Shown piece by piece: positions 7,591 through 34,464 of a stretch of DNA of 34,464 nt. A program made the translations under genes and the position numbers. Where the stretch lies: IMG/VR virus record IMGVR_UViG_3300046751_000486, positions 1 to 34,464 of that record; one strand, given 5' to 3'. Within the stretch, counting starts at the first letter, position 1. Each line of letters starts with the position of its first letter. The notes under the pieces are model-generated. The model had not been told where the DNA came from, did no database searches, and worked only from the letters and a program-made list of their open reading frames with translations. The DNA comes from a virus.

Positions 7591-8356
7591 TTTATTTTCT
7601 TGATAGCCGCAGCTTCTAATTGGTTCTTCTCTTTCTCAAACTCAAGCCAACTTAAGGCTTGCGTGACTTTAAGTTTTGTAACTTCTTCAAACTTGAGGAG
7701 GTCTCCCTGAGCGATTGCATAAATTGATTGATACCAACCCCATTTTCGTCCAAAGCTTGCCTCAGCTCCGAGTCCTCCCGTTGAATCTCCTTCTTCAAAT
7801 AGCCCGTCAAATAGATTGACAGTTCTTTCCCTAAACGATAAAAAAAAACCACAGCCCCCAGTGCTATATCAATAGGCATATCTTTCATTACCTCTGAGTA
7901 CTTATCTGAGCTTTCGTAGTCTTCTATGAGATACATTCCCTTCTTCTCGAAAGTAACCGGTCTATACAATACAGCCATAGCTTTATGCATATCAGTCCAA
8001 TCAGATATATAGGTGTCTAAGTCAACAAACTCTCCTAAAGAGATGCTATCGAGCTTGGGTATAAACCCAAACTCTACCTCTTCACCATTTGGATCCTTTA
8101 AGGAGAACCTGCTTATCATAGGAGTGTCCGCTTTAAACAACTCATTAAGGTGGTTTATTACAAAGTTGAAGTCAGTAAGCTTCATATTGTAGGCCTCCTT
8201 TAGAGTCAGCCCACAAAAGACCTCTAGCATCTTAAGATTAAGAAACTCTGGGTCTTCAGCTTCCTTGTTATCCTCAGATAGCTTATAGAACTTTTGGTAT
8301 TCTGAAAGCTTAATTCCTCTTAGCGACTTGGGGATGTCTATCTTTAACTGCTTCAT
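7587..8356 (-). CDS. Tail assembly chaperone, -1 frameshift product (256 aa)
   Basis: A slip of -1 at the T9 run (codons 171-172) joins residues 1-172 to 84 residues in the -1 frame, including FGRKWGWYQSIYAIAQGDLL and LSWLEFEKEKNQLEAAAIKK. That tail has no stop until TGA 7587-7589, which overlaps the next ATG as ATGA. Its KWGWYxSIYxIAxGD pattern is what I expect for this chaperone family in Bacteroidota phages, so the -1 frame is clearly coding. Production of a short and a long form by -1 slippage is the rule for tail chaperone genes. The alternative, a one-base homopolymer error in the assembly, cannot be excluded from sequence alone, but the zero frame downstream of the run also looks coding. 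Confidence 0.65.
7652..8356 (-). CDS. Tail assembly chaperone, zero-frame product (234 aa)
   Basis: Zero-frame product of the tail chaperone gene. It begins MKQLKIDIPKSLRGIKLSEY; an upstream in-frame ATG (8407) is rejected because the late-promoter motif ends on the ATG at 8356. Helical, with FLNLKMLEVFCGLTLKEAYN near residue 38, and ending NGVGINQFMQSLRETSSSLK. Small proteins just before the head-tail/tail genes that end in overlapping frames are typical of gpG/gpGT-type chaperones, which coat the tape measure protein during tail assembly. First gene of the tail transcription unit. Confidence 0.6.
   Translation of the reverse strand: MKQLKIDIPKSLRGIKLSEYQKFYKLSEDNKEAEDPEFLNLKMLEVFCGLTLKEAYNMKLTDFNFVINHLNELFKADTPMISRFSLKDPNGEEVEFGFIPKLDSISLGEFVDLDTYISDWTDMHKAMAVLYRPVTFEKKGMYLIEDYESSDKYSEVMKDMPIDIALGAVVFFYRLGKELSIYLTGYLKKEIQREDSELRQALDENGVGINQFMQSLRETSSSLKKLQNLKSRKP
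7841..7847 (-). promoter_or_regulatory. Slippery heptamer for -1 frameshifting, with downstream stem-loop
   Basis: In the zero frame the mRNA reads GTT TTT TTT TAT, giving the heptamer T TTT TTT inside a run of nine T (7840-7848 on the plus strand is A9). About 18 nt downstream the mRNA can form a 7-bp stem, CTGTCAA / TTGACGG with a 5-nt loop (7804-7822), which includes one G-U pair. The spacing is longer than usual for a stimulatory structure, so the run itself may be the main determinant. Confidence 0.5.
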
Positions 8357-8392
8357 ACTAATATAACCAATATTTGGTGTCGGTGTATCACA
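8354..8392 (-). promoter_or_regulatory. Putative late promoter fused to the tail chaperone start codon
   Basis: Minus strand: TGTGATAC (8392-8385), 17 nt, GTTATATTAGTATG (8367-8354), ending on the ATG of the first tail gene. It shares spacing and the 14-base core with the copies at 12809 and 29218. It lies downstream of the terminator at 8797-8826, so the tail unit would need its own promoter, which fits. Confidence 0.62.
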
Positions 8393-8401
8393 AGCAGACC
8401 A

Positions 8402-8437
8402 AAACAAAAGATGGAAAAATTAGTTATATTAATATAG
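8402..8437 (+). promoter_or_regulatory. Divergent copy of the late promoter motif (plus strand)
   Basis: On the plus strand AAAC (8402-8405), 17 nt, then GTTATATTAATATAG (8423-8437). Spacing and core equal those of the four copies fused to start codons, but here no ATG follows; the core continues AATATAG instead of AGTATG. It would drive rightward transcription into 8437-8800, the only place where plus-strand transcription seems likely. Confidence 0.5.
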
Positions 8438-8766
8438 AATTGGAATTTTGGGAGTCACAAACGAACAAAAATGAAAATTCGATATCCTTGCTGGGTATTA
8501 ATAAAGAGGCTTAGGGTAACTATACTTTTATCTGAAAGTCTATTCCTCTTTTCTGAATCGGTTGATTTTATTAAACCTGATATAACATAACCGTCCAATC
8601 TCGTTTCACGTTGATTTTACTAAACTGAATATAACATAACCGATTAAGCCCGTTTTACGTTCTTTCCCTGAGAGGCTCGCAAATCTCTGGCTAGGGGTAG
8701 GGTCCCGCTCCTATGTTTAAGGCCCTTAGAAGCGCTGTGAGCGCCTCCTGGGGCCTGTTTTCGTTT
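8437..8766 (+). ncRNA. Candidate plus-strand noncoding transcript
   Basis: Between the divergent promoter motif and a plus-strand hairpin (AGGCCC 8720-8725 with GGGCCT 8751-8756, enclosing GCGCT-GTG-AGCGC at 8732-8744, then GTTTTCGTTT) lie about 330 bases without a persuasive ORF. The longest start at 8471 gives only 39 codons. The 3' half is unusually GC-rich for this genome. I infer a possible structured RNA. The evidence is the promoter match, the hairpin with a T-rich tail and the composition; there is no known RNA family I can name. Confidence 0.3.
8562..8659 (-). repeat. Tandem 49-bp direct repeat with promoter-like elements
   Basis: Two adjacent 49-base units (8562-8610 and 8611-8659) share TTGATTTTA, ATATAACATAACCG and a CGTTT-CACG/CGTTTTACG end, roughly 80% identical. 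On the minus strand each holds AAAC, 16 nt and GTTATAT followed by CAG (AAAC at 8655-8652 and 8606-8603; GTTATAT starting at 8635 and 8586), a near match to the late promoter with one base less spacing. They may be auxiliary promoters for the tail block or binding sites of a regulator. Confidence 0.6.
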
Positions 8767-8846: not shown

Positions 8847-8984
8847 TTATTTCTGTTCTATGTCGGGCAATCCGTGATCGTTTAAACTTATGGACATATC
8901 TAAATAAAACCCGCACGCGCTGCAAAGAAAATTATCCTTTTCGTTGACGTGGCCGCAGCAACTGCAATCTTTGTCTATATTCAT
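8847..8984 (-). CDS. Small zinc-ribbon-like protein (45 aa)
   Basis: An unlisted short gene. Its ATG (8984-8982) overlaps the TGA of the upstream 63-aa gene as ATGA, the hallmark of translational coupling. The product has two Cys pairs, C7-S-C9-C10-GHVNEKDN and C21-SAC24-GFY, spaced like a one-zinc ribbon. Such ribbons bind nucleic acid or protein partners. It is the last gene of the cassette, right before the terminator. Confidence 0.68.
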   Translation of the reverse strand: MNIDKDCSCCGHVNEKDNFLCSACGFYLDMSISLNDHGLPDIEQK

Positions 8985-9172
8985 TTTGTTAAGTTTATAA
9001 ATTCAGTTTGTTTAATTCTTTTATAAAATGTTTTATTGTCTGTTATGTAATATTCCGCGGGGTCGGTTATATCGTATTCAATTATAGACAAAGCTTTTCT
9101 AATTGGATAAAGCTTTTTTATTTCTTTGCTTTGTTTTCTGTAGTGTTCAAACTGTTGCTTTGATTTGCTCAT
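8981..9172 (-). CDS. Hypothetical basic protein (63 aa)
   Basis: Begins MSKSKQQFEHYRKQSKEIKK, is rich in Lys and Gln at the N-terminus and ends KQTEFINLTK. No domain recognised. It overlaps the 254-aa gene upstream by 26 bases and the zinc-ribbon gene downstream by 4, so it is translated within the cassette operon. Confidence 0.6.
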   Translation of the reverse strand: MSKSKQQFEHYRKQSKEIKKLYPIRKALSIIEYDITDPAEYYITDNKTFYKRIKQTEFINLTK

Positions 9173-9911
9173 TTTGTTTTGTGTTTAGTTTATTGCTATT
9201 AATTACAAACCCGGACGCATCAAGCCGGGCGGCTTTTCCTTTTGCTTTGAGGCCCAATATAACGCCCGAGTGATTGATCATTACCAGGTCGGACGCGTCA
9301 CCGTCTACCACCTTAAAACCTTTGTAGTGGGTTGGCAATTGATCCGAGAAGACGGCCGAAACATTAGCCCCGAGGCTTAAGGCCTCGAGGGCCTCGGCTT
9401 CGTTATCTTCAGCCCTGGAAAAGGTTAATACATAGTTAGTCGCGTTAATATACTTTTTTACTTTGCCTAATATTTTTGTATAATCATAGAAGACCGCGAC
9501 CGGGGCCAGGTCGGTAATATCTAAGCCCGCGTATTTTTTCAATAGATATATAAAATCCTGGTCGCTGGTCCCGTTTAATCTAAATGCTATCTGTTCCCCT
9601 TTCTTTTTAGCTTTGGCAGTTTCTTTGACAATTTCCCCGGCCAGCTTTTTGATAAATAAAGCTTTATTATATATATAAAAGTTTGTTTTATTTATGCGCG
9701 AATTTTGGACGCTATTAAAAGCCCCGCGCCCGGCTACCCATAAGCAAGCCGCCGCGCAACCTTTGGAAGCATTAGGGCAAATATTAACCCCGGCCGCATT
9801 TTGATTATATGGTGCTAGGTATAAAATAAAAGTTTTTATTTCGTTCTTTGCTGTCTTTGCGTTGGTGTGGCCCGGGCTCAATAGCCGGGCCGGGATAGTG
9901 TAATTTTTCAT
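9147..9911 (-). CDS. Gp88/DUF7227-like protein, putative TIM-barrel enzyme
   Basis: A 254-residue protein that fits a phage family I know as Gp88-like or DUF7227. Key segments are FILYLAPYNQNAAGVNICPN with C45, C52 and C56 (C-x6-C-x3-C), VAGRGAFNSVQNSRINKT (59-76), FRLNGTSDQDF (110-120), FYDYTK (141-146), YVLTFSRAE (160-168), VVDGDASDL (201-209) and ILGLKAKGKA (219-228). The alternation of short hydrophobic strands with conserved polar ends suggests a TIM barrel, and the Cys triad could hold zinc or an iron-sulphur cluster. The reaction is unknown; the Cys pattern is not the CxxxCxxC of canonical radical SAM enzymes. A nucleic-acid modification role is only a guess. It is the largest gene of the accessory cassette, and its codons use visibly more GCC, GGC and CCG than neighbouring phage genes, a hint of separate origin. 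Confidence 0.68.
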   Translation of the reverse strand: MKNYTIPARLLSPGHTNAKTAKNEIKTFILYLAPYNQNAAGVNICPNASKGCAAACLWVAGRGAFNSVQNSRINKTNFYIYNKALFIKKLAGEIVKETAKAKKKGEQIAFRLNGTSDQDFIYLLKKYAGLDITDLAPVAVFYDYTKILGKVKKYINATNYVLTFSRAEDNEAEALEALSLGANVSAVFSDQLPTHYKGFKVVDGDASDLVMINHSGVILGLKAKGKAARLDASGFVINSNKLNTKQNEQIKATV

Positions 9912-9913
9912 TA

Positions 9914-10255
9914 TTATATATTTAAAAGTTTAGACTCTAAAAAGCTTTCGATAAATCCGTCGGGAAGTTTTAAAGTTCCTTTGCCGTCAACTATTAGCTC
10001 CGCCTCTATTATTTGAGTATCAACGGCACCGGGGGTATAATAGTCCCCGGCCCACTCGGTCAATTCTAAAGTATAATTAATAATAAAGTCATCACCGACG
10101 AAACATTCGTATTGTTTCCTTGTCTTTAAATGTGTTACTTTTCTTTGTTTCATTTTATTCTGTTTTTTATGTTCGTCAAAAGTTTGTGCATTTTCAAAAG
10201 CTTCATTTAGAAGCTCATTAAATTGCTGTTCCTGGTTTTGGTCAAAGTTGATCAT
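9914..10255 (-). CDS. Hypothetical protein (113 aa)
   Basis: The start at 10255 overlaps the TGA of the upstream gene as ATGA. An internal ATG at codon 35 (MKQRKVTHLKTRKQYECF) is an alternative start. The C-terminal two thirds look beta-rich (FIINYTLELTEWAGDYYTPG, IIEAELIVDGKGTLKLPDGF). No family recognised. It is separated from the Gp88-like gene by two bases. Confidence 0.6.
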   Translation of the reverse strand: MINFDQNQEQQFNELLNEAFENAQTFDEHKKQNKMKQRKVTHLKTRKQYECFVGDDFIINYTLELTEWAGDYYTPGAVDTQIIEAELIVDGKGTLKLPDGFIESFLESKLLNI

Positions 10256-10599
10256 CTATTAATAAAACTTGTTAATTGGTTAATATTATTAATGCGCTGG
10301 TCCATCTCGCCGCCGTCCGACCAAGGGTCACGAAAAAAAGTATACTCGACCCCGTCAATTTTTGCCGATATAATGCGCTCAAATTTTATTGTGCGATAGG
10401 CTTTCTTCCTGGTGTTAAATAAATTGATATTTTCAACAGCATCTAAATTATATTTTAGCTTTCCGCCCTTTAGATATTTAGTTACACCTTTGCGAAATAC
10501 ACCCCGGCCCAATGTTTGATTGGCCCTGGTGTAGGTAAGCGAAAAAAACCGCCCGCTTTTAATTTTGTTGTTTAATTCTGTAAAGTTTAAAGTTTTCAT
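10252..10599 (-). CDS. SH3-like beta-barrel phage protein (115 aa)
   Basis: The true start is MKTLNFTELNNKIKSGRFFS at 10599; an upstream in-frame ATG (10683) would read through the 27-aa membrane peptide in another frame and adds an unrelated hydrophobic stretch. Motifs FFSLTYTRANQTL, RKGVTKYLKGGKLKYNL, and KKAYRTIKFERIISAKIDG match a small SH3-fold protein common in tailed phages, in which a GVxKYLKGG loop is followed by a regular beta strand pattern. Its function is not known. First sizeable gene of the cassette. Confidence 0.6.
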   Translation of the reverse strand: MKTLNFTELNNKIKSGRFFSLTYTRANQTLGRGVFRKGVTKYLKGGKLKYNLDAVENINLFNTRKKAYRTIKFERIISAKIDGVEYTFFRDPWSDGGEMDQRINNINQLTSFINR

Positions 10600-10609
10600 T
10601 TTGTAATAA

Positions 10610-10693
10610 TTAAAGGTTAACAAAGTAATTGATAAAGTGCCCGACGATATAACCGCCAAAAGCAAATAAATAAAGATTAACAAATAGTTTCAT
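10610..10693 (-). CDS. Putative 27-aa membrane peptide
   Basis: The ORF MKLFVNLYLFAFGGYIVGHF... ends 10 bases before the SH3-like gene. It is almost wholly hydrophobic and could span a membrane once. It is the first ORF after the cassette promoter, 25 bases from the -7 element. It could be a leader peptide or a small membrane effector. Confidence 0.42.
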   Translation of the reverse strand: MKLFVNLYLFAFGGYIVGHFINYFVNL

Positions 10694-10764: not shown

Positions 10765-11060
10765 CAAGTACCCCCCCTACTTTTTTTTTAATTGTGGGCG
10801 GGGGATCTTTGCCAGGTGAATACAACAAAAGAAAATAAACTGTATATAATAGGAACGGGTGCGCGTTATTTACAAAGAATTTTGGATATATCCAAACCCA
10901 AACCCTTATCAATAATGAGTCTAAATAGTGGATTTGCGGGGGGTACTGCGTTTAAGGGGGTACTGCGTTTAAGAGCCTGGATCCTGGCTCCTGGGCCTAC
11001 TGCGTTTAAGAATTTCGGGGCCACTGCGTTTAAGAATCTACCCCTACTGCGTTTAAGAAT
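10765..11060. other. Intergenic region with homopolymer tracts and inverted repeat
   Basis: No convincing gene occurs between the cassette promoter and the large terminase. The region has C7 (10771-10777) and T9 (10781-10789) tracts, a GC-rich part, an imperfect inverted repeat GAGCC (10973-10977) / GGCTC (10986-10990) around GGATCC, and the five iterons annotated separately. Candidate origin, packaging or regulator-binding region. Confidence 0.6.
10944..11057 (-). repeat. Five iterons CTTAAACGCAGTA
   Basis: On the plus strand TACTGCGTTTAAG occurs at 10944, 10961, 10998 and 11045, and CACTGCGTTTAAG at 11022. Spacings are 17, 37, 24 and 23 bases. The last three are part of a longer minus-strand unit starting ATTCTTAAACGCAGT. 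Related copies lie at 21379-21408. All are in the same orientation. Iterons usually bind a replication initiator or a regulator. Confidence 0.85.
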
Positions 11061-12272
11061 TTATCGGATCACATAAGTGCCGCGCTTGGCATTGATCTCT
11101 GCAAACTGAAGAGCATATCTCATTGCATCGATACAGTGATTCCACTTGTCTATTGGCCGCTCATTGCGAGCGTGCCATACATAGTTATTCAGCTCCTTGA
11201 TTATATTCTCTGACTTAGCATCTACTATAATCTCATAGTCTTGCATCAGGGCTATCCCTGAAAGGATAGACCCTTTGCCTTTCTTAGCTCCTTTTACATT
11301 ACAGCCATAAACCTCCCTGAGCTCCTGGATCATCCTAGGCTCATTGTTGTCTGTTATAATTATAGAGTCTAAGGCGTGTCTTATGTTCCTTTCCCCTATT
11401 TCCTTTGTAGATAGCCCAGGCTTAACGAAACACTCCTGGACCCACATTATCCTATGTTCAGTGTCTACAGAGCATCTGACGAGCGTTGTGGGGTCTGTAG
11501 AGAATCCGTAATCTTGTCCGTATACAATCTGATGGTAATCTTTGAATTGGCCAGTTCTCCAGTTGGTGATCACTACACCTTCAGCCTTGTCAATCCACCC
11601 ACCCATTATTTGGTGCAGATACTTCCTTGGGTTCTTCTTACGCATCATCTCTACCTGCTCAACAAAAGAATTAGATAGATTATCTTTGTTGTCCATATAG
11701 CTAGTGTGAATGTATGTTACGTTATCCTTCCATACATTCGACCCAGCTTCTACTCTTTTGGCTGCAAAGAACCTCTGGTATATCCAATGCTCCTTTGTGG
11801 TTGGGTTGAGTATTAGTATACATCTATTCTGTTTGTTCTTCTCTCTGACTGATTGGTCTATCTTATCAAAGCTGTCTTCGTCTATAAGCTCTTCTGCTTC
11901 ATCCAACACAAAGGTCGTAATACCTTGTAAGGACTTAAGCGCAGCGGTTTGATTACCGCTGCTAGTCTTGATACCTTTAAATATTATTGAGCTTCCGGTG
12001 GCTGTGTTTAAGATCTCATCCTTAGTTATCCTAAAGTGTTTAGCGATACCGAACAGCTCAAGCTTCTCTAGGAACTCTGGTATAATAGAAGTAGCAGCAG
12101 AGACCATCGTATACCTAGCGAACAGAATCTTATGACCCTTCTCCATCGTAAGGAAAGCTAGGAAGGTGTTTACTGCAAAGGACTTACCGGATCCCCTACC
12201 ACCCGTCACTACAAAGTAACGGGTGTCATTTCCTAAAGCCTGGTATTTATCGTGAAGTTGAGGTGCTGCCAC
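11061..12272 (-). CDS. terL: Terminase large subunit (main frame, GTG start)
   Basis: The ATPase-nuclease motor that packages DNA into the prohead. Walker A GGRGSGKS (residues 24-31), Walker B FVLDEAEEL (121-129), a coupling region near LILNPTTKEHW (153-163) and an RNase H-like nuclease starting YGQDYGFSTDPT (251-262), with further acidic residues in IIITDNNEP and HCIDAMRYAL. The only start in this frame is GTG at 12272, giving 403 residues, short for the family and lacking an N-terminal extension. In-frame codons upstream of the GTG (EGFLIQENL) still look coding until a stop, and a well-formed N-terminus lies in another frame (12247-12411). The full product is therefore likely about 449 residues, made by +1 frameshifting, or the assembly has an extra base. 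Confidence 0.92.
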   Translation of the reverse strand: MAAPQLHDKYQALGNDTRYFVVTGGRGSGKSFAVNTFLAFLTMEKGHKILFARYTMVSAATSIIPEFLEKLELFGIAKHFRITKDEILNTATGSSIIFKGIKTSSGNQTAALKSLQGITTFVLDEAEELIDEDSFDKIDQSVREKNKQNRCILILNPTTKEHWIYQRFFAAKRVEAGSNVWKDNVTYIHTSYMDNKDNLSNSFVEQVEMMRKKNPRKYLHQIMGGWIDKAEGVVITNWRTGQFKDYHQIVYGQDYGFSTDPTTLVRCSVDTEHRIMWVQECFVKPGLSTKEIGERNIRHALDSIIITDNNEPRMIQELREVYGCNVKGAKKGKGSILSGIALMQDYEIIVDAKSENIIKELNNYVWHARNERPIDKWNHCIDAMRYALQFAEINAKRGTYVIR

Positions 12273-13301: not shown

Positions 13302-13375
13302 CAGTCTATAAATAACATTACTAATAAAACTATCACTCCAAGCAAGAACACTAATGCAATTATATCAAACATCAT
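13301..13375 (-). CDS. Putative 24-aa membrane peptide
   Basis: MMFDIIALVFLLGVIVLLVM... is one hydrophobic span with an Asp at each end. It begins inside the 3' end of the SET gene and ends with TGATG onto the next gene, so it bridges the two ORFs exactly. This coupling argues that it is translated. Confidence 0.5.
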   Translation of the reverse strand: MMFDIIALVFLLGVIVLLVMLFID

Positions 13376-13703
13376 ACTTTCTATAATATACTGTTAGTTC
13401 TTCTCCCTTCTTTATTGGTTTAATTGTATGCAGAGTACTTTCTACAAAATCCCAGTGTTCTATATTATTGGAATCATTAACATAAGAATGAGCCTCGCGT
13501 ATAAAGCAGTTAGGTGTTGAGCTATGGTTTAAAAAGCCACCCAAAGGTGTCCTAAATAATTTTTCATAGTAAGGCGTATCAGGAAGTTCAACGTGTGTTA
13601 CTCCTAATTCACACCCTGCTTCTATATTTTGTGTTGCAAACACTCCTTGTCCGTGTATCTTACTATTCTTTATGGTAAGTTCGTCAGGTATTGGCTTATA
13701 CAT
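13365..13703 (-). CDS. SET-domain protein, putative lysine methyltransferase
   Basis: 112 residues with the parts of a minimal SET domain: IHGQGVFATQNIEAGCELG (residues 16-34), GGFLNHSSTPNCF (55-67, the pseudoknot NHS-x-x-PN) and IKKGEELTVYY (97-107). SET proteins move a methyl group from S-adenosylmethionine to protein lysines. No pre- or post-SET zinc region is present. In the early block, so it may act on host proteins early in infection; the target is unknown. Overlaps the DnaA-like gene by 8 bases. Confidence 0.8.
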   Translation of the reverse strand: MYKPIPDELTIKNSKIHGQGVFATQNIEAGCELGVTHVELPDTPYYEKLFRTPLGGFLNHSSTPNCFIREAHSYVNDSNNIEHWDFVESTLHTIKPIKKGEELTVYYRKYDV

Positions 13704-14097
13704 ATTCTTTAGTTATAAGGGTTCTATATTCATTCAGCAGAGTTCTATGCTCGACCAATAGGTCGGCATACTTATTCCGATAATACTTCTCCGGGTTAAT
13801 GTCCCGCTCTCTGGTCTTAGTGCATTTAGCTATAAGCTTATTGAGTTTGTCATATACCTCATATAGATTTATTTCATACTCGACAATCACGTCATCAAAT
13901 ATTTTGATTCCGTGAAGTACCGTGGCGTGATCTCTACCTACAGACATACCTATCTCACTAAGCGAGCAGAACGTATGCTGTCTGCATAGTTTAAAGTATA
14001 CAGCTCTAGCATATACTCTAGCTCTTAATCTACTAGGATGGCTTAAGTCTAAATCAAGTTCCCTTTCGACAAGCTCTTTTATTTCTCTAATTTTCAT
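13696..14097 (-). CDS. Stand-alone DnaA domain IV-like DNA-binding protein
   Basis: 133 residues. The N-terminal ~75 match the DnaA C-terminal DNA-binding domain: SRLRARVYARAVYFKLCRQH (22-41), SLSEIGMSVGRDHATVLHGI (45-64), with the signature GRDHATV. In DnaA this helix-turn-helix unit reads the DnaA box. The AAA+ ATPase domains are absent; instead a helical, probably coiled C-terminus follows (TRERDINPEKYYRNKYADLL). It could recruit or compete with host initiation at oriC, or act at the phage origin. Confidence 0.78.
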   Translation of the reverse strand: MKIREIKELVERELDLDLSHPSRLRARVYARAVYFKLCRQHTFCSLSEIGMSVGRDHATVLHGIKIFDDVIVEYEINLYEVYDKLNKLIAKCTKTRERDINPEKYYRNKYADLLVEHRTLLNEYRTLITKEYV

Positions 14098-14341
14098 ATA
14101 TATCTTTTTGTTTTTCTAGTTCTAATTCTACTCTATTAACTTCCAATTGTATTTCTTTTATAGTACACTTGTCTGCCTTCTCCAATGCTTTCTTTACACC
14201 AGCGCAAGCTTCATATAACTCTAAAGATTCAAAGTCCTTCATTTGGACTGCTATCTCTTGATAGGTAACGCCCATCAGTAAATCAACCAAAGCAAGATAG
14301 TAATAGTTCAAAACCTCAAAATCGTACTCTTCTTTAGTCAT
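14087..14341 (-). CDS. Hypothetical helical protein (84 aa)
   Basis: MTKEEYDFEVLNYYYLALVD start and a C-terminal stretch rich in Glu and Lys that is likely coiled coil (EVNRVELELEKQKDIYEN). No family recognised. Its start touches the stop of the nuclease gene at 14341, and its end overlaps the DnaA-like gene by 11 bases. Confidence 0.6.
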   Translation of the reverse strand: MTKEEYDFEVLNYYYLALVDLLMGVTYQEIAVQMKDFESLELYEACAGVKKALEKADKCTIKEIQLEVNRVELELEKQKDIYEN

Positions 14342-15141
14342 TATACAGTTCCGTGTATATACCTATTAAATATAACAGACTCTATTTCTTTGTCAGACTT
14401 TCCTAAGAAGTCTTCCTTATATCTGTCCGTACAAATGCGCACTTTCTCTTCTCCAGACTCGAAGCACTCTTCGGAGGCTTCGTATACTCCAATTCTACCA
14501 GTAACCTTTTCTACAACTAAGAAAGTAAATCTCTCTACATTAAATAGCTCTCTGTATATATATGGTTGGATATCATAATTGTATTTGCTTTTATATCTAG
14601 GATTCCAATTGTCTAATGATGCGGCAGTCTTTAGGTCTACTATATGATTGTTTTTTAAGTAGTCAGCCTTCCCCCTAAAAGGTATCCCATTTATAAGACC
14701 TATAGATGGCACTTCCTCTAGACCTCCCTGCAATAAGCTAGAAGCATATTCACACCTGTCTAGAGATTTCTTTTTCAATGCCCTCATAATATAGAAGTGC
14801 TTTAGCAACACAACTTCCTTATCGGATTCTTCAGCACGCTCCTTAAAGGCTTTAGTCTGAGACTGAGCATCAAAAAACTCATACCGCTGTTCAAGCTTCT
14901 CTGGTTCTAAAGTAAGCATATGAAAAATACTCCCGTGCAACAAAGCATCAGTTTGTTTTCTTTTTGTTGTTAAAGACTGGTAGTATGATATAGAAGACTT
15001 TAGCAGTTCTTTACAGGCGGATGAAGATAAAGCCGCTTTGCTTAAGTGACCAAAGTAAAATGGATCCGAATCCATATTGGATATAAGTTCGTCCTTATTC
15101 CAGCTTATTCCGTCTAGCAATGTTATTGTATCGTTGCTCAT
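14341..15141 (-). CDS. RecE/RecB-like PD-(D/E)XK exonuclease
   Basis: 266 residues. Nuclease core: LLHGSIFHMLTLEP (67-80), EVPSIGLINGIPFRGKADYL with D160, the HIVDLKT motif (166-172, D169 and K171), and YDIQPYIYRELF (189-200, QxxxY-type). This matches DUF3799/RecE-like phage exonucleases, which resect dsDNA ends in recombination together with an annealing protein. The Erf-like protein at 19870-20424 is the natural partner. Key catalytic residues seem intact. Confidence 0.8.
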   Translation of the reverse strand: MSNDTITLLDGISWNKDELISNMDSDPFYFGHLSKAALSSSACKELLKSSISYYQSLTTKRKQTDALLHGSIFHMLTLEPEKLEQRYEFFDAQSQTKAFKERAEESDKEVVLLKHFYIMRALKKKSLDRCEYASSLLQGGLEEVPSIGLINGIPFRGKADYLKNNHIVDLKTAASLDNWNPRYKSKYNYDIQPYIYRELFNVERFTFLVVEKVTGRIGVYEASEECFESGEEKVRICTDRYKEDFLGKSDKEIESVIFNRYIHGTV

Positions 15142-19869: not shown

Positions 19870-20424
19870 TTATTTAATTAGTGATTTAAGATCTTTCAAT
19901 AGATCGTTATTAATAGTATACTTTTGCATAACAGCAGCAACGTTGCCCCCTCCATCAAGGTAAGATACTACCTTTTTATGTTCAGGGGAGCCTTTGAGTA
20001 AGGCTGGTTTGCCTGGACTAGACTTGCTGTGATTATTTGTAGCGTCAGCATCTTTAGTATCGTCTATAAGTAATAAGTTCCCTATAGCATACTTTTTAGC
20101 GTAGCTAGAAGCAGCTCCAGTTCTCTGGGGCTGTTGCATCCCTTTAGCATCAAAATCTATAATAGCCTGGGCATTAGACTCAATCTGCATACTAGGGTCT
20201 TTAGCATCAATAAGCTTGGCAGTGGACTCAATATATAAGACTCCTCCAACTTCTTTAATCTCATCAGTCATCTTAAGCACAGCTTCGTGCTTCATAGCTA
20301 ATGGTTTAACAGCCTCCAAGATGTCCTCGGCAGATCTGTAATTGTACTTCCCAAAGGCATTCCTTTGGTTCTTAGGAGCCTTAAGCTCCGTCTGGATCGT
20401 TAGTAGTTTTTGTGTAATATTCAT
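19870..20424 (-). CDS. erf: Erf-family single-strand annealing recombinase
   Basis: 184 residues with the Erf core: RNAFGKYNYRSAEDILEAVK (21-40), the later QRTGAASSYAKKYAIGNLLL and the DDTKDADA run that ends the domain. Erf proteins bind single strands and anneal them in phage recombination. A linker follows (HSKSSPGKPALLKG), then a small helical C-terminal part. It probably works with the RecE-like exonuclease at 14341-15141 and the RusA resolvase. Confidence 0.88.
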   Translation of the reverse strand: MNITQKLLTIQTELKAPKNQRNAFGKYNYRSAEDILEAVKPLAMKHEAVLKMTDEIKEVGGVLYIESTAKLIDAKDPSMQIESNAQAIIDFDAKGMQQPQRTGAASSYAKKYAIGNLLLIDDTKDADATNNHSKSSPGKPALLKGSPEHKKVVSYLDGGGNVAAVMQKYTINNDLLKDLKSLIK

Positions 20425-27127: not shown

Positions 27128-27627
27128 CCGCCATATGTTGGGTCCTTATCTGGGTACATACCCGTATCTTGCGCTCCGGTATACTCCGGATAATCCTGGC
27201 TCTTCTCATCTATGAAATCAAAAAACCGATTCACATAGAAGTCAGCAAAGTCTTTTGCCCTTGCTGTTAAAGAATCCAGCTCACTCTTTGTAAGAGTATC
27301 ACTAGATTCAGTAGTATGTTTAAATATACCTCCGTTGCTGATTTGATAAGCAGCAAAAGGAATATAGCTATATTGACTATACCATATAAGCATAGGTTTA
27401 ATATGGCTATTCAGTAATGTCTTGTATGCAGCATTGGCGGAATCGTCAAGAGTTCCGCCAGTGATCAAACTTTGTATCTTCTCGTATAACTTAGTACCCA
27501 AAAAGTTCTGTATGTGTATATCCTGGGCCACCTCAACAAATTGAATTAGCTTATCTGTGTCTAAAGCTCCGTCTATGATAGACTTCCGCTTTAACTCCGT
27601 CATTGTTATAAATAATGCCTTACTCAT
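27115..27627 (-). CDS. Head-tail adaptor-like protein
   Basis: Start chosen at MSKALFITMTELKRKSIIDG (27627), which overlaps the portal stop by 8 bases; the longer in-frame start (27711) adds a Ser/Arg/Leu-rich shadow of portal codons. The 170-residue product is helical with IHIQNFLGTKLYEKIQSLIT and FADFYVNRFFDFIDEKSQDY. It resembles the DUF6712-type connector proteins that follow the portal in Bacteroidota phages. Confidence 0.62.
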   Translation of the reverse strand: MSKALFITMTELKRKSIIDGALDTDKLIQFVEVAQDIHIQNFLGTKLYEKIQSLITGGTLDDSANAAYKTLLNSHIKPMLIWYSQYSYIPFAAYQISNGGIFKHTTESSDTLTKSELDSLTARAKDFADFYVNRFFDFIDEKSQDYPEYTGAQDTGMYPDKDPTYGGWVI

Positions 27628-28867
27628 CTTCTTCGGTAGGTTTTTCCTCAACAACAGCCTCAGAAACGCTCTCAGAAGACTCCTGCTGGACGATCTCCTC
27701 TTCTTGGACATCTTCTACCGCAGAAAGCTTTTCTCCCGTCTCCTCTTCTCTCTTGATCTTAGTCTCTATGTTGTCTAGTTCTGTAAATTCTATTGGTTGC
27801 AGGGTAACAAAGTATAAATCCAACGAAATGTCGTTATATAGCAACAATTCCTTGAATGCATCTAGCAACATCTGCTGAAATGGTCTAATTACCATATTGT
27901 CCATCAAAATGGATGCTGTTCTAAGCTCTTCAGCATTATTTCCGAACCCAGTGTTGTCTTTTATCCCTAAAAGGATAGGAGACACCACTCCGTGGCCTAT
28001 CATTATCTTCTCTCGGCTTTCTTTGGCTAAAAACTCATATTGAGCGTGTGCATCAGGCAGATTTATGGGGTCTATGTTAGATTGGTTCTCTGAACCATCA
28101 TTAAAAGCCAAAATAAACCGTCCTGCGTTGCTAGTACCACTAAATTTATCGTAAATCTTACGTTCAATCAACTCCTGGACCTCCTCGTTAGGTATTCCGT
28201 TATTGAAATTGATCAACATACTTGGCTGAAGGCCATTTTGTATGTTTGACAGGTGATAATTACTCACTTCTTCCTCCAAGGTAGCATATTGAAGACATCC
28301 TTGGTAGTCTACGGGTGAATAATAGTAAAAACCAGCCTTGTAAGGCTTAATGACATATAATTCAATACGCTGAGACCTCGTGCCGTTGCGATAAGTAGGT
28401 ATTCTCTTAGGTTTGTCACTAGGTTTAATGTTTTTCCAGTCGCTGTGGTAATAATATGCTTCTATTTTACCGTTTTTAGCCTTCTCAGCACGCAATGTTT
28501 CCATTGGGAAGTGATACAGTCCGGCTATTTCTTTCTTTCTATTCTTATAAACCACTTGAATGGCCGCTTGGCCAAGCATCTTGTAGTCTGTCACTATCTT
28601 TCTTACATCAGTGGCATTTAAAATGCTCTTCATTTGAGCAAACATAAGAGGCTTCTCCTTAGAGTCGGTAGCCTCAAGACCTCTACCGTAAATCATATCA
28701 GAAATACCATTGATACATCTACTATTGGTCGGGCTTCCTAAATACCTCTCAATTAACTCACCAAAATAGTTATTATCTTCACCATACTCGACATAAGCAT
28801 TTCTGCTCTTCTCGACTATTTTAGGCACTTCGTACCCGGTTAGATTTACTACTTTTACATTCTTCAT
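27620..28867 (-). CDS. Portal protein
   Basis: 415 residues. N-terminal YVEYGEDNNYFGELIERYLG, SRCINGISDMIYGRGLEATD, TDYKMLGQAAIQVVYKNRKK; middle QYEFLAKESREKIMIGHGVV then SPILLGIKDNTGFGNNAEEL and MVIRPFQQMLLDAFKELL. This is the layout of HK97/SPP1-like portals in this phage group. The portal ring is the DNA entry and exit point at the head vertex. A long acidic tail (residues ~370-415, Glu-rich) ends the protein. It lies after the capsid genes rather than before them. Confidence 0.85.
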   Translation of the reverse strand: MKNVKVVNLTGYEVPKIVEKSRNAYVEYGEDNNYFGELIERYLGSPTNSRCINGISDMIYGRGLEATDSKEKPLMFAQMKSILNATDVRKIVTDYKMLGQAAIQVVYKNRKKEIAGLYHFPMETLRAEKAKNGKIEAYYYHSDWKNIKPSDKPKRIPTYRNGTRSQRIELYVIKPYKAGFYYYSPVDYQGCLQYATLEEEVSNYHLSNIQNGLQPSMLINFNNGIPNEEVQELIERKIYDKFSGTSNAGRFILAFNDGSENQSNIDPINLPDAHAQYEFLAKESREKIMIGHGVVSPILLGIKDNTGFGNNAEELRTASILMDNMVIRPFQQMLLDAFKELLLYNDISLDLYFVTLQPIEFTELDNIETKIKREEETGEKLSAVEDVQEEEIVQQESSESVSEAVVEEKPTEEDE

Positions 28868-33083: not shown

Positions 33084-33715
33084 TAGCTTAAACTACCGTT
33101 TTGTGTTCTTTGTATGAAGTATATAATATCCCAAACAGAAGATCCGTCTCCTACTGATGTTATCTTTAGTTGCACACCATCTTGCACGAATGTGGAATCG
33201 GTGTAATATTGCATCACCATACTTTCTTGATGCTCGACATTATTCCCTTTGGGAAATGCTAAAGTTCCCGACACTCTTGATATCTGACCAGACCCCTCAA
33301 GGTTATATTCTAAGTAAGTTTGATTTGCGTTTGGTGCTGATGCTTTAAATGCTAGAGTAAATATGTATACGTCATTTTCGTTTATCCCTAATATCTTTTG
33401 CGTTGAAGAGTCATAGAAAGCGATGCTTGAATGACTCCTAACTATGTTACCAGCATTATTAGGAACAACGACTTCCGTGTCTTGAGTTAACGACAACTTA
33501 TTGGAAGATGTATATATTGTGTCATCATACCTAGCCCACCCTAATTGCGTGGTTCCTCCTTGAGGATACACCACTACATTAGACCCATTATGGCCCATAT
33601 AGAGCGCATCAGTAGTATGCAACATTGCACCATTCTCAATATTCACATTATCCACCTCAGATTGATCTGTATGATGGACGTGAACTTTATATGATGTGTT
33701 TTTAGTTGTTGCCAT
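33083..33715 (-). CDS. Beta-rich virion protein (210 aa), capsid decoration candidate
   Basis: MATTKNTSYKVHVHHTDQSE start, TTDALYMGHNGSNVVVYPQG, then NDVYIFTLAFKASAPNANQT and QLKITSVGDGSSVWDIIYFI. Jelly-roll-like beta pattern. It begins with TAATG on the protease stop and ends with TAATG on the next start. Its place in the head block suggests an outer capsid protein; no family name is certain. Confidence 0.55.
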   Translation of the reverse strand: MATTKNTSYKVHVHHTDQSEVDNVNIENGAMLHTTDALYMGHNGSNVVVYPQGGTTQLGWARYDDTIYTSSNKLSLTQDTEVVVPNNAGNIVRSHSSIAFYDSSTQKILGINENDVYIFTLAFKASAPNANQTYLEYNLEGSGQISRVSGTLAFPKGNNVEHQESMVMQYYTDSTFVQDGVQLKITSVGDGSSVWDIIYFIQRTQNGSLS

Positions 33716-34464
33716 TACTTGCTAGACTTCGGATGTTTCTTTGGTAATAAATCGTAATCTGTAGTGTACTTTGCATTCTCTGGTCTGCCATTTTTAATTA
33801 AGTATAAAAAGGCATTAGTGCGTGCAAAAGCCCACTGAGAAGCTGACTTAACGTTAGGACTGTGGCTTGTATTAAAAGCTCCCAGACCACGTTGAAAAAC
33901 AGAGGCAAGCATACCAACAGTGACGCCATAACCCAATTTCTCTTTATATTTCTTGTTAAATTCATCTGCTTTATTTTGAAGTGTTGCTCTGTCTTTTGCA
34001 GAGACTTTGGCTCCAGTTTTGCCTGAAGCATCACCTTTAGCCGTACCCTTGCCTTTAGGGCTAGGGTTAGGCGTATCGGACTTAGGAGCTTTAGGGCTTT
34101 TCTTTACCCCTCCTTTTGGTCCAACCTCAGCCATATTGTGTTTCTCACAAGGCATATACCAAGTATCGCCTTCGTAATCGTGGGTGTGATATCCTTCACA
34201 CCCTATGTCTTTAGCTGCTTCTTCTGCCTCTTCCTTTGTGGAATATGCAGCTCTTCCGTCTATAATTGTTGCAGAAGCTTCTATTGCGTTTAGTCCTTTG
34301 AGTTTAGAAGTAACCCAAGTTAGCATACTTTTGCCTCCCCATAGTAAATAAGAAATGGTTCCGCAAGCTTCTGAGTTGCCAGAGTCGTAATATGTTTCTG
34401 CTCTAGATAAATAACTGTAGATCCTCTTGAGAGTAGGTAATGTAAATTTAGTACTTCCCTTTGC
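33715..34464 (-). CDS. XkdF-type capsid protease (3' part; continues into base 1-958)
   Basis: Continuation of the protease that starts at 958; bases 34254-34464 duplicate 1-211. After the ACGTISYLLWGG module comes a linker with YHTHDYEGDTWYMPCEKHN, a low-complexity part (PKSDTPNPSPKGKGTAKGDA), then a C-terminal domain with GYGVTVGMLASVFQRGLGAF and SASQWAFARTNAFLYLIKNG. That last domain resembles a stand-alone unit (DUF5824-like) found in other phage proteins; its role is unknown. The whole protein (498 residues) is far longer than the protease core. Confidence 0.8.
   Translation of the reverse strand, partial: AKGSTKFTLPTLKRIYSYLSRAETYYDSGNSEACGTISYLLWGGKSMLTWVTSKLKGLNAIEASATIIDGRAAYSTKEEAEEAAKDIGCEGYHTHDYEGDTWYMPCEKHNMAEVGPKGGVKKSPKAPKSDTPNPSPKGKGTAKGDASGKTGAKVSAKDRATLQNKADEFNKKYKEKLGYGVTVGMLASVFQRGLGAFNTSHSPNVKSASQWAFARTNAFLYLIKNGRPENAKYTTDYDLLPKKHPKSSK
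34254..34464. repeat. Terminal direct repeat, right copy
   Basis: Same 211 bases as 1-211 except C at 34380 for T at 127. The reading frame of the protease passes through both copies unbroken. Confidence 0.97.

Follow-up and report, generated by a model that had tools for sequence, protein, structure and literature searches.

GP88, a widespread phage protein family, as a probable compact and divergent radical-SAM enzyme

Enzymes built on the radical-SAM core, iron-sulfur enzymes that generate reactive radicals, such as viperin, QueE, NifB, MiaB and LIAS, carry a cysteine loop after the first strand (β1) of a TIM-like barrel, canonically with the spacing CX3CX2C. The canonical motif is also present in spore photoproduct lyase (SPL; PF20903; PDB 4FHC/4FHG), in which S142, D143, K174 and S195 reportedly contact SAM, according to work by Benjdia and others from 2012. 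When the 4FHC sequence is aligned to an SPL locus, these residues fall within C140-T-S142-D143 after β2, T173-K174 after β3 and S195-I-N after β4, positions being numbered by counting from C140. The spacing CX3CX2C is the usual and not an obligatory one, other cysteine motifs being mentioned in passages of two papers (PMC3742179, PMC9431491).

A second point of comparison is DUF5131 (PF07505, "phage Gp37/Gp68"), in which the motif C-x6-C-x2-C-[YF] was found in all 80 viral sequences compared. A model built from 43 viral sequences (pLDDT 92.4) matched SPL with a Z score of 13.5 (rmsd 3.0, 198 residues aligned), followed by viperin, RlmN and lipoyl synthase, and as modelled DUF5131 is a clear radical-SAM fold. 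Residue 2 of the model pairs with SPL residue 69, and ungapped continuation from there places C23 on SPL C90 (C91 in B. subtilis). The one member of the viral set compared with PADLOC (L222, among L222-L301) matches the candidates PDC-M41B and PDC-M30B.

The window analyzed here, the whole stretch of 34,464 bases, is a record of a tailed phage with genes for the terminase large subunit (11061-12272), the portal (27620-28867), an Erf-type annealing protein (19870-20424) and an exonuclease (14341-15141). The GP88 CDS occupies positions 9147-9911 on the minus strand as a single open reading frame of 254 amino acids, read from 9911 to 9147; frame 1 of the plus strand is interrupted by stops across the same interval. 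The terminase gene is upstream of it on that strand, and two small genes (10252-10683 and 9914-10255) separate the pair. Further small genes come after GP88, and beyond them is 7652-8407, whose best PHROG match carries no function.

Several other features of the window merit description. A stand-alone DnaA domain IV protein without the ATPase part (Bac_DnaA_C, E = 1.5e-12) is encoded at 13696-14097 on the minus strand, and a gene family resembling it by eye occurs, mostly upstream of GP88, at 53 of 144 loci. A small SET-domain protein (PF00856, E = 1.4e-9), here in a phage, is encoded at 13365-13703 (minus strand), and a 203-amino-acid protein with matches to DUF3721 and DUF5824 at 33715-34326 (minus strand). 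A 20-nt repeat with the core ACTGCGTTTAAG is present five times at 10942-11062, at and just past the end of the terminase gene, with a spacing of 17-37 nt, and a 49-nt tandem repeat of two copies that are 80% alike lies at 8561-8658, between the zinc-ribbon gene discussed below and 7652-8407.

The first-pass annotation had placed the product of 9147-9911 in a GP88-like family lacking an assigned reaction, and profile searches bear out both points. The protein matches Pfam GP88 (PF17338) with an E-value of 5.2e-34 and 118.5 bits (cut-off 24.4), residues 17-237 aligning to profile positions 7-228 of 230, and it matches PHROG 1617 with an E-value of 1.2e-58. It is thus a clear member by profile score as well as by conserved residues. 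PHROG 1617 is labelled "unknown function", and neither it nor PF17338 has a function in these libraries; the radical-SAM function is proposed here. The window protein and three relatives had no match in NCBIfam, and GP88 had none in PADLOC. A PDB sequence search with the single window protein returned nothing up to E = 10, and one with the GP88 profile gave six chance-level matches (best E = 0.52), none of them relevant; this lack of a PDB match by sequence counts against a radical-SAM reading. The dN/dS of the window gene against six close relatives ranges from 0.10 to 0.15, two of these pairs having a dS of about 1.9; dS was not computable for three more distant pairs.

A literature search by family names (GP88, DUF5131, DUF7227) found no paper on the family. 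PF17338 was absent among the matches listed in a search for gp88 or PF17338, where GP88 often stands for progranulin; none of the papers listed in further searches treats GP88 as a member of the radical-SAM enzymes, and a narrow search did not find the motif CX6CX3C. Nor does gp88 appear in the main text of papers on polyvalent proteins (PMC5512222), jumbo phages (PMC7824862) and Phold (PMC12774648). In the relevant passages of three papers on cluster K and F mycobacteriophages, gp88 is a gene number, examples being the toxic gp88 of Waterfoul and the gp88 endonuclease of Cabrinians (PMC11797047, PMC9339283, PMC4742673).

The cysteine site noted in the first-pass annotation, C45-x6-C52-x3-C56 (9744-9779, minus strand), is real and far from chance. 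When 235 homologues were aligned (208 of them distinct, with four genes, L146-L149, present twice), the three cysteines are found in every row that has a residue at the position (232, 232 and 233 rows, respectively; the rest are gaps). An earlier count gave C-x4..9-C-x3-C in 231 of 232 full-length proteins, the lone exception beginning at a contig edge inside the triad. Among 66 diverse GP88 sequences the first gap is x6 in 53, x5 in 7 and x7 in 6, and the second is x3 in all 66, so that 13 of the 66 have C-x5-C-x3-C or C-x7-C-x3-C. The canonical radical-SAM spacing CX3CX2C is absent from GP88, which counts against a radical-SAM reading. Beyond the triad, R111 and D117 are invariant (235/235), S165 is present in 233 of 233 rows with two gaps, Y144 in 234 of 235, and D143 in 232 of 235, the remaining three having Glu. 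No histidine is conserved, the best His column reaching 17 of 66.

An AlphaFold2 model from the 66 sequences is confident (pLDDT 92.6, pTM 0.89) and shows a TIM-like barrel, the fold originally suggested. Seven strands were assigned, in order, to residues 26-30, 108-111, 139-145, 160-165, 184-188, 199-203 and 218-222. The cysteine loop and a short helix (residues 50-56), which would hold the predicted [4Fe-4S] ligands, come after β1 (26-30), as in radical-SAM enzymes. Five sequence motifs, all on the minus strand, sit at or just past strand ends in the model: RLNGTSD (residues 111-117, 9561-9581) at the end of β2, FYDYTK (141-146, 9474-9491) at β3, LTFSRAE (162-168, 9408-9428) at β4, DGDASD (203-208, 9288-9305; D208 in 232 of 235 rows, 3 gaps) at β6, and GLKAKGKA (220-227, 9231-9254; K224 in 230 of 235, 3 gaps) at β7. 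As modelled, they could indeed form a pocket.

Structure comparison with VIA-align, in which the first 1000 PDB chains were sorted and counts were taken from the best 50 rows, favors the radical-SAM fold among those named at the outset (TGT/DpdA, radical SAM and aldolase). Rows 1-30, including all 21 with Z of 5 or more, are radical-SAM enzymes, most of them by title and a few of them presumably so. SPL is at the top (Z 6.9, rmsd 5.5, 183 residues aligned), and SuiB (6.5), QueE (5.8), NifB, viperin, EpeE, MiaB and LIAS are among the others. The first other fold is an aldolase at row 31 (Z 4.3), a tie with the radical-SAM enzyme at row 30 (Z 4.4), and further radical-SAM enzymes (LIAS, MiaB and RlmN) occupy rows 32, 33 and 35. 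The tool warns that a Z below 8 may reflect a mere common arrangement, and the best Z for GP88 is 6.9; we therefore take this support as good, not decisive. Foldseek against the PDB gave no match with E of 0.001 or less; its top row is UVDE (E = 0.073, probability 0.44), with RlmN, MiaB and SPL present among the best 50 of 463 and other metal-dependent barrels below UVDE. No TGT row was among the best 50 of either search, which we do not count as proof. With the GP88 model as query against viral structures, Foldseek ranks 1-27 are GP88-, DUF7227- or Gp37/Gp68-named, uncharacterized or unnamed, and ranks 28-50 include seven proteins named radical SAM, QueE or COG0820 (E = 0.06-0.72), besides GP88 proteins and entries that are unnamed or unrelated. 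The BFVD entry A0A514K2X2, from an archaeal virus, a Nitrosopumilus spindle-shaped virus, is named GP88 domain-containing; by its name, the family may reach archaeal viruses.

The likeness to SPL extends to individual residues. At equivalent strand ends both proteins carry [ST]-S-D, T-K and S, with S116-D117 of GP88 corresponding to SPL S142-D143, K146 to K174, and S165 to S195. These positions are occupied in the 66 GP88 sequences by S116 (Thr in 5), D117, T145 (Ser in 1), K146 (58 of 66) and S165, and in DUF5131 by S92 (42/43) and by D93, T123, K124 and S148 (43/43 each). Spacing is similar in SPL, DUF5131 and GP88: 31, 31 and 29 residues from D to K, and 21, 24 and 19 from K to S. A pattern combining triad and pocket occurs in 134 of 235 GP88 and 106 of 145 DUF5131 sequences and in 6 of 1,561 open reading frames of at least 180 amino acids that lack the families' own motifs, four of these six being, by eye, GP88, DUF5131, SPL or other CX3CX2C proteins; the limits of the pattern were set after the families had been seen, which counts against the radical-SAM reading. 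Its non-cysteine part arose in 145 of 20,000 shuffles of the tail of the window protein. SPL differs from GP88 in its canonical CX3CX2C, in being about 100 residues longer, and at two functional positions: the catalytic hydrogen-donor cysteine (C140/C141, two residues before Ser-Asp) is G114 in 64 of 66 GP88 sequences (Ala in 1, Val in 1), and Tyr98 of SPL is replaced by Leu, or by Ile in 2 of 66 sequences, directly after the third cysteine. On these two substitutions we rule out that GP88 is SPL itself.

The lysine shows a further regularity. K146 is replaced by Ala in 8 of the 66 diverse sequences, and the same eight have Lys at position 167, which the other 58 never do (Fisher 1.7e-10, not corrected for relatedness). 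A tree of the 66 rows requires three changes of the lysine label, forced by supported branches. In the 235-row alignment, K146 occurs without K167 in 215 rows and A146 with K167 in 19, with no exceptions in 234 rows (duplicates included); the remaining row, L144, an incomplete protein, has A146 and a gap at 167. From this exceptionless exchange we conclude that exactly one lysine is kept at the barrel mouth, contributed from β3 or β4. Such a swap is the expected behavior of a residue that must contact a substrate or cofactor, and the place agrees with that of SPL K174.

DUF5131 resembles GP88 in the first half of the triad, in the residues that close β2, β3 and β4 ([ST]-D, T-K and S), in strand order and in shared Foldseek neighbors. 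The sequence C-x3-[ST]-x-G-C is found in 75 of 80 viral DUF5131 and in 48 of 66 GP88 proteins, and the two families part at the third cysteine, C-x6-C-x2-C-[YF] in DUF5131 versus C-x6-C-x3-C-L in GP88. In the viral Foldseek list for the DUF5131 model, GP88-named proteins appear at ranks 5, 14, 15 and 39 (E = 0.005 to 0.2), the one at rank 5 with E = 5e-3 and probability 0.99; between them are radical-SAM proteins and also unrelated barrels (glycerophosphodiester phosphodiesterase, E = 0.015). A0A3Q8I2K9 is common to both lists, at rank 4 for DUF5131 (E = 7e-4) and rank 13 for GP88 (E = 1.4e-5). Profile comparison with hhalign, using 7, 65 or 145 DUF5131 sequences and several settings, was never significant (local probability below 1%, P = 0.066-0.17; global P = 0.98), which counts against the link; the cysteines and the β2 and β3 motifs came into register in a low-threshold realignment only, which we do not count as proof. 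PF07505 matches neither the GP88 protein nor anything in the whole record, and membership of DUF5131 by profile is ruled out. As a possible bridge family, phrog_1392 had two matches in 299 genomes, and one of the two was simply the GP88 locus.

Our preferred explanation, held with moderate confidence, places GP88 among the radical-SAM enzymes as a compact and divergent member of the SPL/DUF5131 structural type with an unusual cysteine spacing, a model-based reading that would explain the three fixed cysteines. It must be weighed against a zinc- or other metal-dependent TIM barrel of the UVDE/AP-endonuclease or aldolase kind, in which the triad would bind a metal, for structure or for catalysis, and SAM would play no part. 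UVDE heads the Foldseek PDB list with further metal-dependent barrels below it, class II aldolases reach a VIA-align Z of about 4, and acidic residues (D117, D143, D205 and D208) are conserved. UVDE and aldolases, however, have His/Asp/Glu metal sites, class II aldolase or UVDE-type barrels having a conserved histidine, whereas in GP88 it is three cysteines that are conserved and no histidine; the triad follows β1, and thirty radical-SAM rows stand, though at low Z, above the first other fold in VIA-align. We consider such a metal barrel unlikely. The absence of a conserved histidine also leads us to set aside an option raised by the first-pass annotation, a TGT/DpdA-like fold, here taken as a base-exchange enzyme that would modify DNA or tRNA with a zinc-bound cysteine site. 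A TIM barrel with three cysteines fits that idea, and tRNA genes are within a few kilobases of GP88 in three of the first eight phages inspected, but the zinc site of TGT/DpdA consists of three cysteines and one histidine, a signature without counterpart here, and this reading is barely credible.

Two further alternatives stay closer to the radical-SAM fold. GP88 might be a scaffold derived from a radical-SAM enzyme that has kept the Fe-S cluster and lost the SAM chemistry, serving in binding or sensing during host takeover; its lower structural similarity compared with DUF5131 (best Z 6.9 versus 13.5) and the lack of a partner gene seen across the family would agree with this, but the conservation of barrel-mouth residues (R111, N113, D117, D143, Y144, S165 and D208), together with the lysine swap, argues for an active pocket, and we regard the scaffold as distinctly unlikely. 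A DNA-lesion (photoproduct) repair enzyme, the phage counterpart of SPL, is suggested by the rank of SPL as top structural match, by the pyrimidine-dimer glycosylase and thymidylate synthase genes near GP88 in Roseobacter phage CRP-143, and by the marine origin of some carriers. The CRP-143 neighborhood is a single case, though, and the replacements of C140 and Tyr98 described above make such a repair activity highly improbable.

If GP88 is a radical-SAM enzyme, its three cysteines would hold a [4Fe-4S] cluster, with SAM bound to the fourth iron, and S116-D117, K146 (or K167) and S165 would hold the methionine moiety of SAM. One electron from a host reductase would then yield a 5'-deoxyadenosyl radical, and this would abstract a substrate hydrogen close to a conserved basic set made up of K19, K22, R72, K75, R111 and K224. 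A phosphorylated substrate (a nucleotide, DNA or RNA) may fit these basic residues best, although this is a guess; modification of nucleic acid or a nucleotide, one option of the first-pass annotation, is a possibility.

The family is as widespread in phages as had been claimed: at an E-value of 1e-5, GP88 is found in 267 of 50,697 phage records, 237 of them mycobacteriophages, the other carriers including phages of Pelagibacter, Roseobacter, Stenotrophomonas, Xanthomonas and Caulobacter. We kept at least 80 GP88 loci from 114 confirmed viral contigs, and 23 further loci are in genome contigs; because many of these contigs are metagenome-assembled, the 23 may themselves be phage DNA. The proposal that GP88 forms one complex with the neighboring SH3-like and zinc-ribbon proteins is not supported. 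Among close viral loci, 75 of 121 have the SH3-like gene (10252-10683) near GP88; it is there in 1 of 79 distant viral loci, in none of the 23 genome-contig loci and in none of 8 annotated phage loci, and is common only near close relatives. The zinc-ribbon-like protein (8847-8984, minus strand, 45 amino acids) matches Pfam at sub-threshold scores only (DZR, E = 5e-4), and its cluster adjoins GP88 at 10 of 144 loci. No partner gene conserved across the GP88 family was seen in the loci examined.

In at least 11 phages among the matches listed (HTVC309P, HTVC134P, HTVC120P, HTVC035P, HTVC024P, HTVC115P, HMO-2011, Lo5R7ANS, CRP-143, CRP-6 and CRP-235), the GP88 match begins less than 2 kb from one end of the record and points inward. 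Of six whose topology was inspected, five are linear and HMO-2011 is circular, so that its "end" position means little. In Mycobacterium phage Peaches, GP88 is gp85, with a single annotated gene between it and the right end; in cluster A phages this end carries Pleft, an early promoter, and is very highly expressed early on (PMC6550527). Location near a genome end among presumably first-expressed genes, in several unrelated phages, suggests that GP88 may act early, on host or incoming DNA. Against a general rule of this kind, GP88 is in mid-record in HTVC023P, in four Pelagibacter phages of 41,069 bases, in DC31 and in jumbo phages; it points outward near the right end of Rhizobium phage TRX32-1, and in the window it is placed after the terminase gene.

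Some members have unusual domain arrangements. In phage Tunturi_5 (L306:4398-10274), an InPase-GP88 fusion annotated "minor head protein" adjoins a 1489-amino-acid ART-PolyVal/GNAT/NUDIX protein annotated "MutT/NUDIX hydrolase", an arrangement in the style of polyvalent proteins, for whose InPase members packaging into the virion, and perhaps injection, has been proposed (PMC5512222). At three other loci (L351:1139-4036, L379:6405-8705 and L374:6720-8840) the GP88 domain is on the C-terminal side of open frames of 707-966 amino acids in which it is the sole Pfam match at E = 0.01.

Like many other widespread families of phages, GP88 has lacked a function, and assignment to the radical-SAM enzymes would make this orphan directly testable and add an unusual cysteine spacing to the superfamily. 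DUF5131, too, is possibly an SPL-like radical-SAM enzyme, as suggested by its model, and the PADLOC candidates matched by one of its members are defense candidates. Tentatively, and with the balance somewhat against it, we put forward a broader picture: GP88 may be a large overlooked phage radical-SAM family with a new C-x6-C-x3-C cluster motif and a movable active-site lysine, expressed among the earliest genes in many unrelated phages and securing infection by modification of nucleic acid or of some host target, and the same chemistry may serve both attack and, in DUF5131 as a candidate, defense. The assignment, if correct, points to a radical enzyme so far unrecognized in phages that infect mycobacteria or abundant marine bacteria.
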